The position numbers and the translations under genes were made by a program. Below, piece after piece: positions 4,954 to 19,868 of a stretch of DNA of 28,524 nucleotides; positions within the stretch are counted from its first letter, which is position 1; each line of letters starts with the position of its first letter. Under the pieces are notes generated by a model, which saw nothing but the letters and a program-made list of their open reading frames with translations, made no database searches and was not told the DNA's origin. Source of the DNA: a virus; the IMG/VR virus record IMGVR_UViG_3300008952_000229, positions 1 to 28,524 of that record. The stretch is one strand, 5' to 3'.

Positions 4954-5409
4954 GTGTCTGAGATGAAATTGATAATGGAGAATTGGCGCCTTGCGAATTT
5001 GACCGAAGGTTTAAACACTGTCGGTGATTTAATTAATGTCATACAAACCGTCAAAAGAGATAAGATGTTAAAGAAAGGCGGCAAGCTGATAGCCAAGTTG
5101 GCTACTGGGGGCTTGGGAGACGTTGCTGATTTTTTAGGCGCAGCTATGGATGCAGGTGACTTTGCGTCAGCTTTGTATGGCGGAGATTTATCACAGAAAA
5201 AACAACCCCCAGGACTAGAAGCAATTGCTATTGATCCAGATATTTCTAGAATTGTAGATGATGATATAGAAAAAGCTTTTTTAAAACACCTGTCCGCACA
5301 ACTCGAAGAGCTAGATCCGCAAACCCCATTAAGCCAAGTTAATACTACCGCGATGCTGCAGGCTTTTATAGCTCAGAATTTTAACAACAAAACTGTAAAG
5401 GATAACTAA
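4954..5409 (+). CDS. Unknown small protein, GTG start, possible head-targeted protein
   Basis: 151 residues. GTG is chosen because GGAG at 4943-4946 lies 7 bases upstream; the ATG at 4963 would be 16 bases away. The N-terminus (MSEMKLIMENWRLANLTEG) is an amphipathic peptide ending in a Leu-x-Glu, the kind of site cut by T4-type prohead proteases. Residues about 45-75 form a Gly/Ala/Leu-rich stretch (KLATGGLGDVADFLGAAMDA) that might be a weak amphipathic or membrane-interacting helix; the C-terminal half is a charged helical region. The stop overlaps the next start (TAATG). Function unknown; an internal head protein is a possibility by context and N-terminal pattern. Confidence 0.75.
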   Translation: MSEMKLIMENWRLANLTEGLNTVGDLINVIQTVKRDKMLKKGGKLIAKLATGGLGDVADFLGAAMDAGDFASALYGGDLSQKKQPPGLEAIAIDPDISRIVDDDIEKAFLKHLSAQLEELDPQTPLSQVNTTAMLQAFIAQNFNNKTVKDN

Positions 5410-5723
5410 TGGAACTTTTGACTTTTATACTCGCAGCTTATGGCTTAACTCAAATATTAGTGTACGGCAGCATTTTTGATGGATGGCGCCCCACAGAAGG
5501 AAAACTAGGAGAGCTATTCAAGTGTCCAATGTGTATGGGATTTTGGGTAGGCGCACTTTTAATGTTTCTTTCTCCGTTTACAGAACTATTTAGTTTTGAC
5601 GTATCTGTTGACAATTTTTTGATTTTAGGATGTATCTCTTCGGGGACATCATATATATTAAATATGACATTCGGAGACGAAGGTATTAAGCTATTTAAAA
5701 CAGTAGAGGTAAAAAATGACTAA
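5409..5723 (+). CDS. Small membrane protein with CPMC motif (DUF1360-like)
   Basis: 104 residues with three likely transmembrane segments at about 3-20, 44-60 and 69-88. Between the first two is ELFKCPMCMGFWVGA, with C39 and C42; a Cys-x-x-Cys directly before a Gly-Phe-Trp hydrophobic helix is the hallmark of the DUF1360 family of small bacterial and phage membrane proteins, whose function is unknown. AAGGA at 5398-5402 and a TAATG overlap with the upstream stop support the start. It is odd to find an inner-membrane protein in the middle of a head-assembly operon; T4 proheads do assemble on the inner membrane (via gp40), so a membrane anchor for assembly is a possible but untested idea. Confidence 0.8.
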   Translation: MELLTFILAAYGLTQILVYGSIFDGWRPTEGKLGELFKCPMCMGFWVGALLMFLSPFTELFSFDVSVDNFLILGCISSGTSYILNMTFGDEGIKLFKTVEVKND

Positions 5724-5808
5724 CTTTTGGACACAGAAATGGATGCTTCAACCAGTAAGGAATTGCTGTAAGGGATCAATACCCGCGCGGGTGATGCCCG
5801 CAATATAG
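5716..5808 (+). CDS. Very short ORF, 30 residues, unknown
   Basis: A 30-codon frame (begins MTNFWTQKWMLQP, ends ARVMPAI) starting inside the last codons of the DUF1360-like gene. It is supported by AGAGGT at 5705-5710, only 5 bases before the ATG, and it fills the otherwise empty 95-base gap before the next gene; its TAG stop abuts the GAGG ribosome-binding site of that gene. The peptide has two Trp early and a Cys pair. It contains a GC-rich hairpin in its last third. Could be a genuine micro-protein or a leader that couples translation to the next gene; coding status is uncertain because of the length. Confidence 0.4.
   Translation: MTNFWTQKWMLQPVRNCCKGSIPARVMPAI
5787..5801 (+). other. GC-rich hairpin before ribosome-binding site
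   Basis: GCGGG and CCCGC (5787-5791 and 5797-5801) form a 5-bp stem over a TGATG loop; the left arm is also part of a perfect 12-base palindrome (5781-5792), so two alternative folds exist. No T-run follows, so it is not a standard terminator. It sits 6 bases before GAGG at 5808-5811 and could influence initiation of the 5819 gene. Confidence 0.45.
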
Positions 5809-5818
5809 AGGAATACAA

Positions 5819-6472
5819 ATGAAGATTACTAAATCACAACTTAAACAGATAGTTGAAGAAGAGATATCTAATGTTACTTCGGAAGCGATGTACGGCGCCG
5901 GCGAAACAGGCAGAAGAAAGATTGGCATGCAGGACGTAGCAGGCAACTATCTGCGCGATCAGAAGAAGGGCGAGGAACCTTACGCTCCCGATATACAGAG
6001 AATATGGGAATCGGCACTTGAAGATGAGATTAAAAAGGCGCCCACCGCTGGTTTTGAAAAATGGTCTGATGATTATCGATATTATCTTTTTTCTAAGAGA
6101 ACCGTAATTAATGAATTTAAGCATATAATGGAAAAGTGGGGTAAAGACTATTGGGTAAGCCGCGCAAAACAAGCACTAAAAACTGGTGATTCCATCTTTC
6201 CAGAGGCTAGTGAGAGCCGTGGTGGCCCACCAAATATGGATGAAGATGGCTGGCCACGAGTCCCAGAAGATGCCAATCCGGTACCTGACTCAGTATATAA
6301 ACCGGGAGAGTTTCCAACGGAACAGTGGTACAAGTTTGTTCCGCCGGCTGGTGGATTCGAAGGTAGAGAAGCTGGACCCGCCCCAGAAGGGGAATATGAT
6401 ATTCCGTTTCAAGAGTCTATGATTACGCGGATTATCCAAGAAGAATTAAAGAGGTTTTTAAAAAATAAATAA
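5819..6472 (+). CDS. Unknown protein with capsid-targeting-like N-terminus
   Basis: 217 residues. The first 18 (MKITKSQLKQIVEEEISN) form a Lys/Gln/Ile/Glu amphipathic helix ending in consecutive Glu, similar in kind to the start of the proteins at 7073 and 9850. Residues about 60-120 are Trp/Tyr/Lys-rich helical (IQRIWESALEDEIKKAP, HIMEKWGKDYWVSRAKQAL), then a Pro/Gly/Glu-rich linker at 130-195, and a C-terminal helix RIIQEELKRFLKNK that echoes the N-terminal pattern. GAGG at 5808-5811 is 7 bases before the ATG. The stop overlaps the protease start (TAATG). T4 internal head proteins carry a short N-terminal capsid-targeting sequence removed by the gp21 protease; a similar role here is inference from pattern and position. 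Confidence 0.75.
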   Translation: MKITKSQLKQIVEEEISNVTSEAMYGAGETGRRKIGMQDVAGNYLRDQKKGEEPYAPDIQRIWESALEDEIKKAPTAGFEKWSDDYRYYLFSKRTVINEFKHIMEKWGKDYWVSRAKQALKTGDSIFPEASESRGGPPNMDEDGWPRVPEDANPVPDSVYKPGEFPTEQWYKFVPPAGGFEGREAGPAPEGEYDIPFQESMITRIIQEELKRFLKNK

Positions 6473-7080
6473 TGGGAAAAGTACTTTTACGAGAATATTA
6501 CGAACTCTGCGAGGGTGGCGTATGTCAAGATCTTTTGACAGAAGATGAAAAAAGATTTGTGTCAAACGGCGGCATGATGCTTTCGGGCAAATTACAAGAA
6601 GCCGATATACAAAACGGTAATGGAAGAGTTTACCCTTTCAAAACTTTGATGAGAGAAGTTAAGAATTACCAAAAGCTCGTAAAAGAAAAAAGAGCGCTGG
6701 GAGAATTAGATCATCCCGATGACTCAGTTATTAATCTCAAAAACGCATCACATATGGTTACTTCTGTTTGGATGGAGGACAAAAGTGTGATGGGTAAAGT
6801 AAAAGTTTTAAACACTCCTTCTGGCAATATTCTTCGTTCACTGGTAGAGTCGGGTGTTAAGCTTGGTATCTCTTCTCGTGGGATGGGCTCTGTGAGCGAG
6901 AACAACGGCGCTACCACGGTACAAGACGATTTTCAATTGATCTGTTTTGATTTCGTTTCTGAGCCATCAACTCCAGGGGCATATATGATGTCCGAAGCAA
7001 AGAATTTAAAAGAATCCAATATATTCACACGAGCAGATCGAATCAATCGCTTATTAAATGAGGTATTAGCAGATGAATAA
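6472..7080 (+). CDS. gp21: Prohead core protease (T4 gp21-like)
   Basis: Serine protease that assembles inside the prohead, trims capsid and core proteins and then itself before packaging. 202 residues, close to T4 gp21 (212). Seen: an NGRVYP segment at 50-55, GELDHP with the likely catalytic His81, LGISSRGMGSV with the likely nucleophile Ser134 or Ser135, and an acidic partner probably in CFDFVSEPS (Asp160). This His-Ser order and the SSRG context are those of the gp21 family (MEROPS U9/S80 type). The best upstream purine motif (GAGG about 6450) is too far away, so translation probably depends on coupling through the TAATG overlap. It overlaps the next gene by 8 bases. Confidence 0.95.
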   Translation: MGKVLLREYYELCEGGVCQDLLTEDEKRFVSNGGMMLSGKLQEADIQNGNGRVYPFKTLMREVKNYQKLVKEKRALGELDHPDDSVINLKNASHMVTSVWMEDKSVMGKVKVLNTPSGNILRSLVESGVKLGISSRGMGSVSENNGATTVQDDFQLICFDFVSEPSTPGAYMMSEAKNLKESNIFTRADRINRLLNEVLADE

Positions 7081-9853
7081 ACCACAACTTGCACAAATTG
7101 TTTTAGAGGAAATAAATCGCCAGGAAGATATCAGGAAGACTGCGACGATTATCCAGGAAGAACTCTTGGTTTTTAAATTAAATCAAGACATTCTTAAAGA
7201 ACATCAAAAACTTATAAAGGAACGCAAAGATTTCTGGTCGGTGGTTTTACAAGAATACCTTAAAGCAGAGCATGGCGACAAGTTTGATTCATCGCTTATT
7301 GAAGAGGGTATTTGGACAAATATTAAATATAATATAGGCAAATTGGGCTCTCTTGAGAAGGGCGGCAAGATTTTTGGCAAGCGCAAAGAACGCGTTGCTG
7401 CCGCATTGGAAAAAGTACAAGCTGCTATTGATGGCGCTATGAAGAAAGGCTTCGGAGATTTTAAGAAAAATATTGAGGCAGAGCATAAAGAGTTTCCTAA
7501 TATGAGAGAAAAGGTTGATTTTATGGCAGCACTATATGAAATTGGTGGTGTATATGATTCAGCCGAGGCCGCCGTTGAGTCGGGCAATTTCCCTGGTGGA
7601 CCTGCAGCAGCAAATTATCTTGTGAAAGCTTTGAGAGAATATGTAAAATGGCTTCTTGATTTTCAATTGGCAGACGCTTATAAGCATTTCACAGAAGAAA
7701 AAGAAATACCGGAAGATGTTCTGGCAGAACAGCTTCAAGAATGGCATACCAAGAATTTAAAAGAAGCTCCAATTATGCCTGGAAACGTAGGTGCTGCAAC
7801 TGACACTAGACAGCCTCAGTTACAAAAGGGCCGCACAGCGGCTTATGCTGCACCCGAGGGCCCAACGGGCGCGAGCTATACAAAAGCCGGCAGAGAGGGC
7901 GACGAGGTAGATTCTGCCACAATTAAAGGGCTCAAGAGCAACAAGGCACCAGCAGTTCTGGCAGCTTTAGGAGCATTGGGAGCCGGATTTGGTTGGCTTG
8001 TCCAACAGCCATGGTTTATAGCCATGTTTAAAGACCCAGGACAATGGGTAACACTTAAGAACGTTATTATGGGAACAGACAGAGTGGGAGTAACCGAACA
8101 GTTAGCAGTGTTACAAGGGACTCCAGGCGCGAATCTTTCCCAATTGGGCGTCGGAGATTTTGTGAAGCAAATGGCGTCAAAGGGACTTGTTGATGGTGCT
8201 GGCAATCCAACAAAGAATTTATTAGATATGGCGTCAGCCGGCGGAAATACAGGTTTCGCTAATTGGTGGACAACCAATATTGCAAATGCTGTAACTACAA
8301 ATCCTGCAGCCACTTTGGAACAAGTCATTCCCTTGTCGGGAGCGGGGGCCCCCGGCGCAGGAGGCGATGTTTTTACTCCTAAGATTGCAAAGATAGTGAC
8401 AAAGACAGTTTTCAGACAGGGTGCCACATCTTTGGGCGCATATCAATTAGCTGCAGCCGGCCCATGGATCGCAGCTTTGGGCATTGGATTAGTTAGTGCC
8501 GGCGCAGCAGTCAAGCTCCTTCGTATGAAGGGCATGAAGTCTTCACGAGCACAAATGCTCGCAGATTTATATAAAGAGTTAGTAGACTTTCCTGTGCCTG
8601 AAGAAAGTAAAATACAACAAGCAATTGATCCTGAGCCCGAAAAGAAAGACGATGACATCGAACAAACTTCGGATGATACCGACCTGGACCGGGGTCCTGT
8701 CGAGCCCGTCGACCCCATAACCGAACCTGGGCTTCAACAAGAAGTTATAATTGATTATGACACCGTACAAGCGCGTGTAGGCGACAAGGTTGATGATCCA
8801 GTCAAAGTAGATTATATTTTGCAAGCTTTCGAGGCAGCAAACAAAAACGACAAGATCAAGTTTAAATTAGCTCCCGCTTCTATCGCCAAGGTACAGAAAG
8901 AAAATATTAATGTTTTCCAGGCATGGAAGGAATACATAGCGTCCGAAGAGCCGTCGATAACGACAGCAGACGTGAAAGAAGTAATAAAGGCTATTTTGGG
9001 AATCTATGGAGACGCGGGACTTACGCAGGCACATTTTGAGGGCATGGACGAGTTGCCCATCACTAAGACGGATGACGAAGTTGATGATGAAGATCGGACT
9101 AAAAAGGACGACGAAACCAAAATCACTGTTGATGATGAAGAGGTGATCACACGGGACTTGGAACCAGACGCCACCCCCCAAGATGATCTTTCTCTAACCA
9201 AGGATGTATCAAGGTGGGATAAAGGAGAAGAGCCGGTTGATACGACTGTAAGTGTCGATCCAGAAAAGGGAGAAGAAGAAGAGGAAGAAGAGGTACCTAA
9301 AAAGAAAACTTATAGATTGCCTCCTAAATTTAAACAGCAGGAAATCGAAACACGCACAGGAAAAACGTATAAAGTTGCGCGTTTATTAAGAGATCTTGAA
9401 GGCGCCCACGCTCAACAGTTTCCAGAAAATTCTTTTGAAGAAGACTGGGGAGAGTTTGTGGATGCATTAGGAGACATTAAGAGACAAATGAGCGCCCCCG
9501 TGCAAGAAGGAGGAACAACTGTGGCAAAGATGGCAGGTGCATTTGGCAAAGAAAAAGCCTCTACTGCATTAGCGCATCTGAATAATCTCCAAAAGAAAAA
9601 GGACACTGGATCTTATCGTATCCTGCAGTCACTAAAAAAACCTCATGACGCTCGTGTAATGGTGCCGCTTTTGACGCGTGTATTGAAGTCGGTTACAAAG
9701 GGTGGCGTGTCTTCTAAACAAACAGCAGATGCCACCAGCGCCCCGCCGGCGAAGCTGGCCAACGTAGCCGAAGCAATGGGAGAAGGCATCTTAAAAGAAT
9801 CTGTCCTTGGCAGATGGAAGACGCTATCAGGAATTAGCAAGGGTGATGGATGA
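7073..9853 (+). CDS. Large head-cluster protein, candidate internal virion protein
   Basis: 926 residues, not recognised. Layout: N-terminal helix MNKPQLAQIVLEEINRQ, similar to the start of the 5819 protein; Lys/Glu helical region to about 235; Pro/Gln/Gly linker; hydrophobic Ala/Gly segments at about 292-311 and 459-482 that could span or insert into a membrane; then very acidic tracts at about 520-550 and 656-742 (including a run of seven Glu); a basic helical C-terminal region to 926. GAGGT at 7060-7064 supports the start, which overlaps the protease gene by 8 bases; the stop overlaps the next start (ATGA). The place between protease and later scaffold and the acidic segments could suggest a core protein, but gp22 itself lies at 16734. 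An ejected or membrane-active internal head protein is an alternative. Function not known. Confidence 0.8.
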   Translation: MNKPQLAQIVLEEINRQEDIRKTATIIQEELLVFKLNQDILKEHQKLIKERKDFWSVVLQEYLKAEHGDKFDSSLIEEGIWTNIKYNIGKLGSLEKGGKIFGKRKERVAAALEKVQAAIDGAMKKGFGDFKKNIEAEHKEFPNMREKVDFMAALYEIGGVYDSAEAAVESGNFPGGPAAANYLVKALREYVKWLLDFQLADAYKHFTEEKEIPEDVLAEQLQEWHTKNLKEAPIMPGNVGAATDTRQPQLQKGRTAAYAAPEGPTGASYTKAGREGDEVDSATIKGLKSNKAPAVLAALGALGAGFGWLVQQPWFIAMFKDPGQWVTLKNVIMGTDRVGVTEQLAVLQGTPGANLSQLGVGDFVKQMASKGLVDGAGNPTKNLLDMASAGGNTGFANWWTTNIANAVTTNPAATLEQVIPLSGAGAPGAGGDVFTPKIAKIVTKTVFRQGATSLGAYQLAAAGPWIAALGIGLVSAGAAVKLLRMKGMKSSRAQMLADLYKELVDFPVPEESKIQQAIDPEPEKKDDDIEQTSDDTDLDRGPVEPVDPITEPGLQQEVIIDYDTVQARVGDKVDDPVKVDYILQAFEAANKNDKIKFKLAPASIAKVQKENINVFQAWKEYIASEEPSITTADVKEVIKAILGIYGDAGLTQAHFEGMDELPITKTDDEVDDEDRTKKDDETKITVDDEEVITRDLEPDATPQDDLSLTKDVSRWDKGEEPVDTTVSVDPEKGEEEEEEEVPKKKTYRLPPKFKQQEIETRTGKTYKVARLLRDLEGAHAQQFPENSFEEDWGEFVDALGDIKRQMSAPVQEGGTTVAKMAGAFGKEKASTALAHLNNLQKKKDTGSYRILQSLKKPHDARVMVPLLTRVLKSVTKGGVSSKQTADATSAPPAKLANVAEAMGEGILKESVLGRWKTLSGISKGDG

Positions 9854-10266
9854 AGAAGTCAGATCTCAAACGCTTAATCAAGCCTGTAGTTAAAGAGTGT
9901 ATTCATGAAGTCCTTCTAGAAGAGGGGCTTCTCTCGAATGTGGTGGCTGAAGTAGCTAAGGGCATGCAAGGTAATCTCGTTATGGAAACAAAAGAGGCTG
10001 CTCCGAAACGCATGTTTAATGAAGATATGAAGATGCGCAAGCAGTCTAACGAATCGAGAAAGAAGGTTCAAGAACACCGTCAAAAATTGATGGAATCTAT
10101 GGGAGCAGACGCATATAATGGCGTTGATTTGTTTGAAGGAACTGAGCCGATGTCACACAGGCAGTCTGCCGCCGGCGCACCCGATTTGGGTCCTCCCGGC
10201 GATGCAGGGGTAGATATTAGTTCTATTCTCGGACATTCTTCCGCGATTTGGAAAGCAATGAAATAG
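9850..10266 (+). CDS. Small helical protein with capsid-targeting-like N-terminus
   Basis: 138 residues, charged and mostly helical. The N-terminus (MKKSDLKRLIKPVVKECI) continues into HEVLLEEGLLS, again an amphipathic Lys/Leu/Ile helix ending in Leu-x-Glu, as in the 5819 and 7073 products. Residues 50-85 are a Met/Lys/Arg/Gln-rich coil and 105-130 a Gly/Pro/Ala linker. AAGGGTG at 9839-9845 and an ATGA overlap with the 7073 gene support the start. The size is near T4 prohead-core gp68 (141 residues), but I see no sequence match, so a core or internal head protein is inference only. The bS21 gene follows 7 bases downstream. Confidence 0.75.
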   Translation: MKKSDLKRLIKPVVKECIHEVLLEEGLLSNVVAEVAKGMQGNLVMETKEAAPKRMFNEDMKMRKQSNESRKKVQEHRQKLMESMGADAYNGVDLFEGTEPMSHRQSAAGAPDLGPPGDAGVDISSILGHSSAIWKAMK

Positions 10267-10273
10267 GTATATA

Positions 10274-10516
10274 ATGGCAAAAACATATAATATTGGCGTA
10301 ACTTCAAGAGAGACAAGGGGTAACGTTGAGAGAATGATAAAAAAATTCACTAAGAAAGTCAAGAAAGAACGCATTATTGAAGAGGTGCGTGATCGTAAGC
10401 GATATAAAAAACCATCTGTTGCTAAGAAAGAAAAACGAATTCGAGCACAACGGATGAGATTAAAAGAAGAACGAAAAAAACGTAAAGCCCAAGAAAGACG
10501 CAATAGAAAAAAATAG
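10274..10516 (+). CDS. rpsU: Phage-encoded ribosomal protein bS21
   Basis: 80 residues, about the length of bacterial bS21 (70-71 in E. coli). Residues 18-58 follow the bS21 pattern: a helix NVERMIKKFTKKVKKERII, then EEVRDRKRYKKPS at 36-48 (E. coli has AEVRRREFYEKPT), then a Lys/Arg-rich C-terminal helix to residue 80. bS21 binds the 30S platform near the anti-Shine-Dalgarno end of 16S rRNA and aids initiation. Homologues are known from cultured and environmental phages. AGGT at 10265-10268 is 5 bases before the ATG. It is the last gene of the head operon; the inferred late promoter for the next unit begins 3 bases after its stop, with no terminator between. Incorporation into host ribosomes to favour phage mRNA is the usual hypothesis, unproven here. 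A generic basic nucleic-acid-binding protein is the alternative. Confidence 0.85.
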   Translation: MAKTYNIGVTSRETRGNVERMIKKFTKKVKKERIIEEVRDRKRYKKPSVAKKEKRIRAQRMRLKEERKKRKAQERRNRKK

Positions 10517-10556: not shown

Positions 10557-11000
10557 ATGCCAGGCGATTCATGGAAATTAGCACCAGGCCTACACAACGT
10601 TGGCTCTTATCAGGTGAGCGGCATTCCCTTTGTATCGGGTGGAATTGATGCTAGGACAGCCCTCAAGATTCAATTCCCCTCTGTAACTAAGTGGGTGTGG
10701 GTGCAGAATAGAGACGACTCCAATGATTTAAAAGTGGGCTTTTCTGAAGCTGGAGTGAGAGCCGACGCTGCATGGACTGGCGCAGGATATGCGGCAGGAA
10801 CGTATTTTTTTACCGTGGAAGACACTTCGACGGCGCCCGATAGAGCTTCTCATTTACCTACATTGCCCGTAAAGATTAGCGAATTGTGGCTTTCGGGATC
10901 GACTGCCGTAGATGTAATGGCTGGATTGACTTATGTTCCTAAACAGCGTACTGATACTACCCAAGGCACAAGTTGGTCGGGCTCTAACGGGGTAGGATAG
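10557..11000 (+). CDS. Putative virion decoration/structural protein, copy 1 of tandem pair
   Basis: 147 residues, beta-rich, no signal peptide. It starts MPGDSWKLAPGL and shares with the next gene almost every block: GSYQVSGIPF, SGGID, TKWVWVQNR, LKVGFSEAGV, DRASHLP, ISELWLSGS, MAGLTYVPKQRTDT and a Ser/Gly C-terminus. The Trp/Val-Gln-Asn core and the SELWLSGS strand near 115 suggest a compact beta-sandwich. AGGAG at 10546-10550 precedes the start, with ACTATTTA upstream. Strong ribosome-binding site, own promoter and lack of enzymatic motifs point to an abundant virion protein such as capsid decoration or fibre base; this is inference. Confidence 0.75.
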   Translation: MPGDSWKLAPGLHNVGSYQVSGIPFVSGGIDARTALKIQFPSVTKWVWVQNRDDSNDLKVGFSEAGVRADAAWTGAGYAAGTYFFTVEDTSTAPDRASHLPTLPVKISELWLSGSTAVDVMAGLTYVPKQRTDTTQGTSWSGSNGVG

Positions 11001-11034: not shown

Positions 11035-11454
11035 ATGCCGGGAGATTCATGGAAATTAGCGCCTGGATTAAATGCTGTTGGAGCTTATCAAGTTAGCGGC
11101 ATTCCATTTGCGTCGGGTGGTATTGATTGTACCACTGCTACGAAAGTTCAGTTCCCACATGTGACTAAATGGGTGTGGGTACAAAATAGATTTTCGGGAA
11201 CTGGGGTTACCAACCTTAAAATAGGCTTTTCGCAATTGGGAGTAGAAGGCGACAATTGGATTGCGTTGCCCGATAAACATTCGGGAGCACCAGATCGTGC
11301 GTCGTATCTTCCCATTATTGATGTGAAGGTAAGCGAAATATGGCTTTCAGGATCGAGCAACGTGGATATAGTTGCAGGATTAACGTATGTTCCTAAACAA
11401 AGGACTGATACTGACAAGGGTACCAGTTGGTCTGGTTCTGCAGGGGTAGGATAA
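11035..11454 (+). CDS. Putative virion decoration/structural protein, copy 2 of tandem pair
   Basis: 139 residues, a clear paralogue of the 10557 product: MPGDSWKLAPGLNAVGAYQV at the start, TKWVWVQNR, LKIGFSQLGVEGDN, APDRASYLP, VSEIWLSGS, AGLTYVPKQRTDT and SWSGSAGVG at the end. The main difference is the loop at about 55-85, where copy 1 has an Ala/Gly insertion. The leader is also duplicated (TTAGGAGATTC before both starts; AGGAG at 11023-11027). No ACTATTTA stands directly before this copy, so it is probably co-transcribed. Two diverged copies suggest a hetero-oligomer or two positions in the particle. Confidence 0.75.
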   Translation: MPGDSWKLAPGLNAVGAYQVSGIPFASGGIDCTTATKVQFPHVTKWVWVQNRFSGTGVTNLKIGFSQLGVEGDNWIALPDKHSGAPDRASYLPIIDVKVSEIWLSGSSNVDIVAGLTYVPKQRTDTDKGTSWSGSAGVG

Positions 11455-16733: not shown

Positions 16734-18032
16734 ATGTCAACATTGCTAAAAGAAGCCATCATTGATGCTAAGGCGTTACGAGATGCCGCATTAAAGACGG
16801 CAGAATCCTCGATTGTAGAGAAGTATTCTGATGAGGTGCGCACAGCACTCGATAAACTTTTAGAACAAGAAGATCCCCTTGCCGCCGATCCAATGGCGGC
16901 CGATCCGATGGCGGCCGATCCGATGGCGGCGGATCCCTTGGCTGCTGATCCCATGATGGGGATCGAGGGAGCAGAAGGAGCCGAAGTTGAAGATATCGTG
17001 GATGGAGTTCCTTTATCTGCAACAGATAATTTGTCTGAAATGGAAGGCGAAGGATTAAAACATTTAGAAGATGAAGGAGAAAATGTGAAAGTGACTGTTG
17101 ATTTAGATGCTCTTGCGGAGGCTATAGAGTCTCTACAAACTGAGACGGGTGGAGGCGGACGATCTCCTAGTGATCCGGGCGTAGCTAAAAAAGACATCGC
17201 CGGAAAACAACCCAAACATTCATGGGAATCCGAAGAGGATGATGAACTAGAAGAAGAAATTGATATTAATGAAGAAGATTTAATTAAGATGGTGGCAGAA
17301 GCTACAGCAGGAATTACTGCTGCAGCACAAGAAGAAGCCGATGTAGACGCTATGGACTCTTTAGAAGGGGGTGGAAAATCAAGTGGCGGAAGCGAAGCTG
17401 TTGAGGCTGATGTCATGGGAACGGAAGACGAAGAAGGCGAAAAACAAGAAGAAGGCCTAGAGATTCCCGATGAGTTAATTGATGCCATCGCAGAAAAGCT
17501 CACAGTAGATATGGGCGCCACATTAGGTGGATGGGCAGGACGCTCATCCGAAAGTCAGAAGTGGGAGATGGGAAAAGAAATTGCTCATCGTCGTACTACT
17601 GATGTTAAAAAAGATTTAGATGTTTTGAGAAAAGCTCAAGAAGAGTTGGTTTTTGAAAATAAGCAACTCAAAGCGAGCAATAAAAAATATAAGCAGGCTG
17701 TTGGAGAAATAAAAGAAACCTTGCAAGAGGTTAATATTTCAAATGCGCGCTTGCTTTACACGAACCGTGTTTTGAGAAATACCTCCCTAAATGAGCGGCA
17801 AAAAGATAAAATTGCCGAAGCTATTTCTAATGCTGGTTCAGTTATGGAGGCAAAGACAATATTTGAAACGCTTGAAAGCGCAGCGCCGGCACAAACTAAA
17901 CGTGCCCCACAATCGTTGAGCGAAGCAATCAATCGTCCGTCTTCAATTATCCGTGCATCTCGCAGAGAAGCACAAACAACTGATCCATTCTTAGACAGAA
18001 TGAAAAGGTTAGCCGGAATTAAGAATAACTAA
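16734..18032 (+). CDS. gp22: Prohead core scaffolding protein (T4 gp22-like)
   Basis: Forms the internal core on which the capsid assembles and is degraded by the prohead protease. 432 residues against 269 in T4. Features: N-terminal helix; five-fold repeat of the pentapeptide ADP(M/L)A at 47-74; acidic, low-complexity middle (about 75-250, many Glu/Asp, Gly and Ser runs); a basic coiled coil at about 280-345 (RKAQEELVFENKQLKASNKK, then NARLLYTNRVLRN); and NERQKDKIAEAIS with AKTIFETLES at about 355-385, a signature of gp22 homologues in T4-like phages. The place immediately before gp23 is the T4 arrangement. AGGAG at 16722-16726 is 7 bases upstream. The extra length lies mainly in the acidic part. 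Confidence 0.92.
   Translation: MSTLLKEAIIDAKALRDAALKTAESSIVEKYSDEVRTALDKLLEQEDPLAADPMAADPMAADPMAADPLAADPMMGIEGAEGAEVEDIVDGVPLSATDNLSEMEGEGLKHLEDEGENVKVTVDLDALAEAIESLQTETGGGGRSPSDPGVAKKDIAGKQPKHSWESEEDDELEEEIDINEEDLIKMVAEATAGITAAAQEEADVDAMDSLEGGGKSSGGSEAVEADVMGTEDEEGEKQEEGLEIPDELIDAIAEKLTVDMGATLGGWAGRSSESQKWEMGKEIAHRRTTDVKKDLDVLRKAQEELVFENKQLKASNKKYKQAVGEIKETLQEVNISNARLLYTNRVLRNTSLNERQKDKIAEAISNAGSVMEAKTIFETLESAAPAQTKRAPQSLSEAINRPSSIIRASRREAQTTDPFLDRMKRLAGIKNN
16872..16955 (+). repeat. 15-bp tandem repeat in scaffold gene
   Basis: About 5.6 units of GATCCNATGGCGGCC-type sequence, each coding D-P-(M/L)-A-A. Units 2-4 are nearly identical and units 1 and 5 diverged. In-frame expansion or contraction would change length without breaking the gene. 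Confidence 0.9.
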
Positions 18033-18050: not shown

Positions 18051-19868
18051 ATGGCTGGTATTGTAGAAAGATTAACTGAAGGTATCATTAATCGTGATAT
18101 GCGTGCCGAAGGTAACGCATTGTTAAATAAGTGGGAGGCTACTGGTCTTCTCGAAGGGCTTGGTTCTGATCAAAAGCGTCAGACAATGGCTCGATTGCTT
18201 GAAAATCAAGCAAAGGAACTCCTCCGTGAGAGTTCATCCATGGCAGCAGGTGATGTCGAAGGCTTCGCAGCCGTCGCGTTCCCCATCGTTCGCCGTGTTT
18301 TTGCAGGCTTGATCGCCAACGATCTCGTTAGTGTTCAGCCCATGAGTCTCCCAAGTGGACTCATTTTCTTCCTGGACTTCGTGTTCTCCCCTGACTTGGG
18401 AGCATCCGCTAGCCAGACCGACCGTTTTGGTAACTTAGTTAATAAGTCCATTTACGGTACTGATCAGGTTGGTAGCCAGATCACAGGTGGTGTAGACTTA
18501 GTCTCTTCAGACGCGTCCTCACTCTCTGGTCCGCGCAACAGTGCTCGCGGTTATGCATACGCATCTCCGTCCGCTAGTAGCGTTCAGTTCGCTGCTGGTA
18601 CCGGCGTTGCTCTCAAGGATCAGTTCTACCTAGGCGGTGGCAACAGTATTACTTATGCTACTGACGCTCAGCTTAAGCTTATCGAATGGGATCCTGATCT
18701 CGTTGCGTTATCAGGCGGAAGCACTGCGTACAAGGTAGTTGTTCTTGATCTCTTGAAGTCTACTTATACGGCTGCTCAGACGGATATGGACAACTTGGCT
18801 GCATTCGAGATTAGTGGTGCCGCATGGAACACTTGTCTTGATGGACTCGCTAGTGATACTGCTTGTTCTTCAGTGCGTCGATTGACGACATTTGTTGCAG
18901 CAGGTAATACCGATCTGGCAACAGCAGCAGTTCGACATATTGGTATTATGACATCTGCAAGTATTGGTGGAGCAGGCTCTGCTTCTGTCGGTGCTGGACT
19001 TGGTGTACAGGTGCCAATTTATGACAATCTCACTAATGCTTCTGCATTGGGCGCGGTTGTCGGTACGACTGAATGGGGACTCGAAGGAAACGACCAAATC
19101 CCAGAGATCGACATCAAGGTCGACTCAGTGGCAGTCACCACGCAAACCAAAAAGCTCAAGGCTAAGTGGACGCCAGAGTTGGGGCAGGATCTTAATGCCT
19201 ATCACAACCTTGACGCCGAAGTCGAGCTTACCAGTATTCTTTCTGAGCAGATTGCTCTTGAAATTGACCGTGAGATTCTTGCGGATCTGGTAAATGGTGC
19301 AACCGCCAGTACGTACTACTGGGCTCGCTCACCGGGCTTGTTCGTAGATCGTACAACTGGTACGGAGGTTGGTGCTAGCGCTGCTGCTCCAGACTTCACC
19401 GGTACCGTTAGCGAGTGGTATGAGACTCTGATTGAGACCATCAATGATGTGTCCGCTCAGATTCATCGTAAGACTCTGCGCGGTGGAGCTAACTTCATCG
19501 TCTGCGGACCTGAAGTTGCTAATATCCTTGAGTTCACGGCTGGTTTCCGCGCAAGCGTAACCGCTGATGACGACAGGGGTACTGCTGGTGCAGTTAAGGT
19601 TGGTTCTCTTTCCAAGAAATTCGACGTTATCGTTGATCCTTACTTCCTGCGCAACGTTGTCCTAGTAGGACGCCGAGGCTCTAGTTTCCTAGAGAGTGGA
19701 TATGTATACGCACCTTATGTGCCACTACAGACTACCCCCACGATCTTCGGCCCTGAAGACTTCGTGCCGAGAAAGGGTGTTATGACTCGTTATGCAAAGA
19801 AGATGGTTCGTCCTGATATGTATGGCTTGGTTATCATTCGCGGCTTGCTTGGTGAGTCTGGTTCCTAA
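18051..19868 (+). CDS. gp23: Major capsid protein (T4 gp23-like)
   Basis: Main hexamer subunit of the head, 605 residues (T4 521). The N-terminal 60 residues are a removable helix; ELLRE at 56-60 followed by SSSMAAGDVEGF fits a T4-type cleavage after Leu-x-Glu at residue 60, where T4 cuts at 65. The mature N-terminus leads into AFPIVRRVFAGLIANDLVSV and QPMSLPSGLIFFLDF at about 93-112, the clearest gp23 landmark. HK97-fold elements follow (IDIKVDSVAVTTQTKKLKAK, LTSILSEQIALEIDREIL, GANFIVCGPEVANILE, KFDVIVDPYF). The region about 185-310, Ala/Ser/Thr-rich, looks like an insertion in the domain between. AAGGAGGT at 18034-18041 is near-perfect, and codons are more C-ending than in neighbours, both as expected for the most abundant protein. 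Confidence 0.96.
   Translation: MAGIVERLTEGIINRDMRAEGNALLNKWEATGLLEGLGSDQKRQTMARLLENQAKELLRESSSMAAGDVEGFAAVAFPIVRRVFAGLIANDLVSVQPMSLPSGLIFFLDFVFSPDLGASASQTDRFGNLVNKSIYGTDQVGSQITGGVDLVSSDASSLSGPRNSARGYAYASPSASSVQFAAGTGVALKDQFYLGGGNSITYATDAQLKLIEWDPDLVALSGGSTAYKVVVLDLLKSTYTAAQTDMDNLAAFEISGAAWNTCLDGLASDTACSSVRRLTTFVAAGNTDLATAAVRHIGIMTSASIGGAGSASVGAGLGVQVPIYDNLTNASALGAVVGTTEWGLEGNDQIPEIDIKVDSVAVTTQTKKLKAKWTPELGQDLNAYHNLDAEVELTSILSEQIALEIDREILADLVNGATASTYYWARSPGLFVDRTTGTEVGASAAAPDFTGTVSEWYETLIETINDVSAQIHRKTLRGGANFIVCGPEVANILEFTAGFRASVTADDDRGTAGAVKVGSLSKKFDVIVDPYFLRNVVLVGRRGSSFLESGYVYAPYVPLQTTPTIFGPEDFVPRKGVMTRYAKKMVRPDMYGLVIIRGLLGESGS

Follow-up and report, generated by a model that had tools for sequence, protein, structure and literature searches.

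A peptide of about 15 residues, MKITKxQLKxIIKEE, begins otherwise unrelated proteins of uncultured marine phages, and judging from its sequence it is likely to be a capsid-targeting propeptide, similar in kind to the capsid-targeting sequence (CTS) of T4 but with a sequence of its own, greatly expanded and lineage-specific. In the assembling prohead, the amphipathic N-terminal helix would attach the protein to the scaffolding core; the S77 prohead protease would then cut after [IL]xE (residue 14), with a second cut perhaps close to residue 22, and the freed mature body would stay in the head with the DNA, perhaps to be injected along with it. The tag is portable, with several hundred unrelated bodies found behind it, and there are two other types that apparently do the same job.

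Tagged products in the window

The window, namely the whole stretch of 28,524 nucleotides analysed here, is IMG/VR record IMGVR_UViG_3300008952_000229, a 28.5-kb fragment with a T4-type head and tail cluster. Pfam matches identify a portal (PF07230), an S77 protease (PF03420) and gp23 (PF07068), and terminase, sheath and tube genes also appear to be present when gene order and sequence are read together. The product of 6472-7080 scores above the curated cut-off of PF03420 and hence belongs to Peptidase S77, its nearest relatives in cultured phages (of Microcystis, Flavobacterium and Synechococcus) being about 39-56% identical. The features to which the text refers are as follows.

4963..5007, + strand: probable type C tag MKLIMENWRLANLTE in the 151-aa product (4954-5409), of the MKLIMENW..xE form, judged by eye
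5819..5863, + strand: type A tag MKITKSQLKQIVEEE, N-terminus of the 217-aa product (5819-6472), 29.4 bits
6413..6469, + strand: C-terminal tag repeat ESMITRIIQEELKRFLKNK of the same 217-aa product, 8.2 bits, with a relative in L006
6472..7080, + strand: S77 (gp21-type) prohead protease, the presumed processing enzyme, PF03420 102.5 bits against a cut-off of 27
6484..6495, + strand: LLRE near the protease N-terminus, a possible self-processing site
7073..7114, + strand: shortened type A tag MNKPQLAQIVLEEI, N-terminus of the 926-aa product (7073-9853), 17.1 bits
9850..9927, + strand: diverged tag-like N-terminus MKKSDLKRLIKPVVKECIHEVLLEEG of the 138-aa product (9850-10266), 7.9 bits, 12 relatives
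18219..18230, + strand: LLRE at the expected gp23 propeptide junction (LLRE|SSSM), where cleavage would be predicted from T4

The first-pass annotation had proposed that the products starting at 5819, 7073 and 9850, which surround the protease, share an N-terminal motif. The three ORFs do start at these positions with the protease gene among them, and the motif was borne out by a 12-column profile, built from tagged-family representatives of other contigs with the window's own 5819 protein excluded, for which the best of 1,389 control N-termini reached 3.3 bits. The N-termini of the 5819 product (KSQLKQIVEEEI, 29.4 bits), the 7073 product (KPQLAQIVLEEI, 17.1 bits) and the 9850 product (KSDLKRLIKPVV, 7.9 bits) all exceed every control, and they are the only ones in the window to do so, none of the other window ORFs (28 in total) rising above -2.2. 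The 7073 product carries a shortened form of the tag, and the 9850 product is the weakest case of the three. The latter belongs to a separately conserved family, with xLKxLIKPLVKECIxEVLxEEG in 12 relatives, whose versions in two jumbo phages, found in the fetched protease neighbourhoods, lie nearer to the tag (for example MAKITKRMLKGIVKECLVEILSEG, 22.3 bits). The repeat that had also been suspected at the C-terminus of the 5819 product (ESMITRIIQEEL, 8.2 bits) likewise exceeds the null, and the L006 relative of this product has a complete second tag at its C-terminus (GKIKKSQLKRIVKEELKRFLKNK), scoring 38.4 bits on a 15-column profile. No Pfam or PHROG family was matched by any of the three products.

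Several neighbouring genes were recorded on their own account. Directly 5′ of the 5819 gene lies a tiny ORF (5716-5808, MTNFWTQKWMLQPVRNCCKG...), and in another locus the DNA ahead of a tagged gene codes for a peptide resembling it (NTWTRKWMLQPVRLCKSGC). Between the tagged genes and tail-fibre-like genes sits a gene (10274-10516) whose very basic 80-aa product matches ribosomal protein bS21 (PF01165, 38.5 bits); the adjacent products 10557-11000 and 11035-11454 are tandem paralogues, both beginning MPGDSWKLAPGL. Before gp23, a scaffold-like protein (16734-18032) contains a short tandem repeat (DPMAADPMAADPMAADPLAADP).

Distribution of the tag

Beyond the window, at least 276-294 BLAST-unrelated families begin with the type A tag, and distinct Pfam domains occur among their bodies, although these counts rest on BLAST non-detection, so that distant kinship among short bodies is possible. 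A degenerate DNA pattern for MKITKx[QE]L... gave at least 120 matches in viral contigs, against none in viral contigs for the same residues in scrambled order, and no exact copy of the tag pattern occurred in 23 random long contigs. By strict regex, tagged ORFs in whole long contigs number 17 in G003, 13 in G031, 8 in G001, 3 in G010 and 2 in G020, while the 367-kb G014 has none by the strict and one by a relaxed regex. The tagged ORFs of long contigs often stand in tandem runs, some of them far from head genes. The highest number for one record, 25 tagged ORFs within the retrieved stretches, was found in a MAG contig (TMED69). No convincing cultured phage carrier was found in INPHARED by tblastn with tag types A, B and C.

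A cellular role for the tag was considered and rejected, as a scan of genome contigs returned only 13 stretches, all in MAG contigs and several of them multi-tagged; the contigs with many tags may well be phage contigs binned into MAGs. As to the capsid genes of the long contigs, G003 and G016 each have two tandem full-length gp23-like genes, and G011 carries, some 48 kb away from its capsid gene, additional short fragments that are gp23-like.

Anatomy and conservation

The anatomy of the tag was examined on proteins selected on residues 1-8 only, one per body family, giving 276 families among the matches listed. Positions 11, 12, 14 and 15 are I in 85%, I in 93%, E in 95% and E in 75% of these families, and [ILVM]xE falls at residue 14 in 95.7% of them, compared to 1.9% in bodies, with a second peak at residues 21-22 (16% and 30%). 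Conservation stops at residue 22-23, just past an [IL]xE site, and information is about 0 from residue 24. As in a CTS, the same peptide precedes unrelated mature bodies. Because copies retrieved with the DNA pattern are constrained in part of residues 1-12, the test of E14 was repeated on 80 loci fetched by protease homology alone, where 33 tagged families were found in 38 loci and E14 was present in 100%. The gp21-type [IL]xE ending that is expected of a CTS is thus found in 95.7% of the 276 and in 100% of the 33 families. The very N-terminal position is equally CTS-like: when ORFs were searched throughout, 579 of the 606 strong matches listed came directly after the start codon, and the others lie mostly near the N-terminus, behind another module, or at the C-terminus.

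Association with the S77 protease and gp23

As would be expected of a CTS, the tag is carried by phages with both S77 and gp23. An S77 protease is present in 24 of 36 long tagged contigs, including 11 of 11 of at least 150 kb, compared to 3 of 23 random long contigs (p = 5e-5), and gp23 occurs in 23 of the 24 with S77 versus 0 of the 12 without it. As the S77-less contigs also lack gp23, they are probably fragments missing the head module. Moreover, the gp23 propeptide junction in relatives of the window conserves [LV][LI][RK]E, followed by a variable spacer, which is the same form as the IIKE|E of the tag, and LLRE was seen 62 times among 74 N-termini of related S77 proteases.

The tag also has dialects, which separate perfectly by S77 clade: records with NQNGR in their S77 protease have Arg-rich tags of the KRQLRR type (9 of 9), and the remaining records have low-Arg tags (15 of 15). 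When tags from unrelated bodies are compared, those of one record resemble each other more closely (0.685) than do those of different records (0.632), with permutations giving at most 0.662. Common ancestry contributes to both the dialect-protease match and the within-record likeness, and it confounds the dialect and S77 associations.

Portability of the tag

Bodies behind the type A tag include HNH endonuclease, DUF6321, DUF5824, DUF3008 and FliG_C domains. A second form, type C (MKLIMENWxxFLxE), is found on 32 families, with carriers such as a protein in which a guanylate kinase domain starts at residue 21, just after the tag, and, below the family cut-off, a Zeta_toxin-like kinase and an AAA_33-like protein. 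Type B (M..WSSF...WRxFLxE) is found on 14 families. For the 926-aa window protein (7073), with its type A-like start, L032 encodes a homologue that starts with type B instead (35.5% over 498 aa, E 2e-46), which shows tags being exchanged on a conserved body. In L036, a 46-aa protein consists of the tag and a YLSNIYKWCP module; this small protein recurs in L049 and L190 fused to the ends of longer proteins, the L049 copy still lying behind an internal tag.

Alternative explanations

It has to be considered that the tag might serve solely as a propeptide for the building blocks of the prohead core. The three window proteins would then be gp67-, gp68- and gp22-like core proteins, held together by the shared helix and cleared at maturation, and not cargo. 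As an account of the tag overall this is improbable, because there are hundreds of tagged bodies, which differ from phage to phage, have enzyme domains among them and occur in arrays away from head genes. It may still hold for the three window proteins: their genes lie between the portal and capsid genes, where T4 keeps its core genes (67, 68, 22), and relatives conserve both the 9850 product and the gene that follows the protease. They are best regarded, on present sequence grounds, as putative tagged head components, either core parts or cargo. Hence the modular cargo-loading set envisaged by the first-pass annotation stands in part, in that comparison strongly supports a modular N-terminal tag with a gp21-type site on unrelated bodies, linked to the head machinery and reaching far beyond these three genes, while the three proteins that prompted the idea may belong to the core; clearer cargo arrays lie elsewhere in related genomes.

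Less probable again is that the tag binds a non-capsid phage or host factor and marks early host-takeover proteins acting in the infected cell. Small variable genes in tandem, frequently close to the ends of contigs, do resemble takeover modules, and no enrichment of the T4-type late promoter TATAAATA was found upstream of tagged genes, but takeover would predict neither that the tag ends in a conserved [IL]xE and matches the gp23 junction, nor that it goes with S77 and gp23 genomes in dialects that follow protease clades. Hardly credible is a signal conserved in the DNA or mRNA where genes begin, for translation for example, of which the peptide would be a by-product: tag codons lean A-rich (AAA, ACA, GAA), but codons differ at the conserved Leu, Ile and Thr positions, those for Leu and Ile widely, so that selection acts on the peptide and not on the DNA; the upstream DNA has no strong common element, and in-frame internal and C-terminal copies exist. 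A capsid-targeting propeptide remains the reading that we prefer, although the missing late promoter, the tag arrays distant from head genes and the 12 long tagged contigs with no S77 speak against it.

Implications

T4 has few known internal proteins, several of them with functions still open. With a tag legible in the sequence, the head-carried proteins of uncultured ocean phages become computable: several hundred proteins stand out as candidates for head loading, and the tags supply new peptides with which foreign proteins might be brought into phage heads. On balance, we lean slightly towards the broader idea that a large uncultured group of marine T4-like and jumbo phages loads many fast-changing proteins per virion, enzymes included, for delivery to the host by means of cleaved tags in several dialects; if this is true, reading the tag predicts the injected protein set of uncultured viruses. 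Our literature search found no paper with the tag sequence, nor one joining “capsid targeting” and phage metagenomes.

Comparison with known systems

In SPN3US and phiKZ, head proteins lose N-terminal propeptides to the prohead protease at a motif ending in Glu (PMC10052503). The tag resembles the propeptides of these head and ejection proteins in its N-terminal place and its Glu-ending motif, with cleavage being predicted for the tag; in the passages of that source drawn on here, the propeptides are longer than the tag, mostly 111-254 residues with two of 20-24, and a recurrent portable tag, unlike in the tagged marine phages, is not described (PMC10052503).

A different arrangement is seen in the cyanophage T4-GC119 proteins (L428-L439; cyanophages P-SSM4, S-SM2 and S-RIM2), which look like chains of small basic modules joined by xE|[AG]-like linkers and, from their sequence, could be a head polyprotein cut by gp21. 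The DUF6321 cargo module of the tagged protein L154:5550-6104 is shared with T4-GC119, where such linkers precede it, but there it is a module of one long multi-module protein with no type A tag; in two small phages, P-SCSP1m and HTVC035P, DUF6321 stands alone and untagged.

The closest parallel is the CTS of T4, a gp21-processed peptide on IPI, IPII and IPIII, with IPII and IPIII in NC_000866 beginning MKTYQEFIAE|A. Its processing depends on residues 8 and 10, and T4 Alt is also cut at its C-terminus. In both cases a short N-terminal MK...IxE peptide precedes unrelated bodies, in phages that have an S77 protease and gp23. Compared to the T4 consensus MKTYQEFIAE, MKITKxQLKxIIKEE has a longer conserved stretch and lineage dialects, and tagged genes number up to 25 per record as opposed to a few in T4. 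Only MK and IxE are common to the two peptides, which is too short for judging homology, while the [IL]xE site of the tag matches the specificity of T4 gp21.
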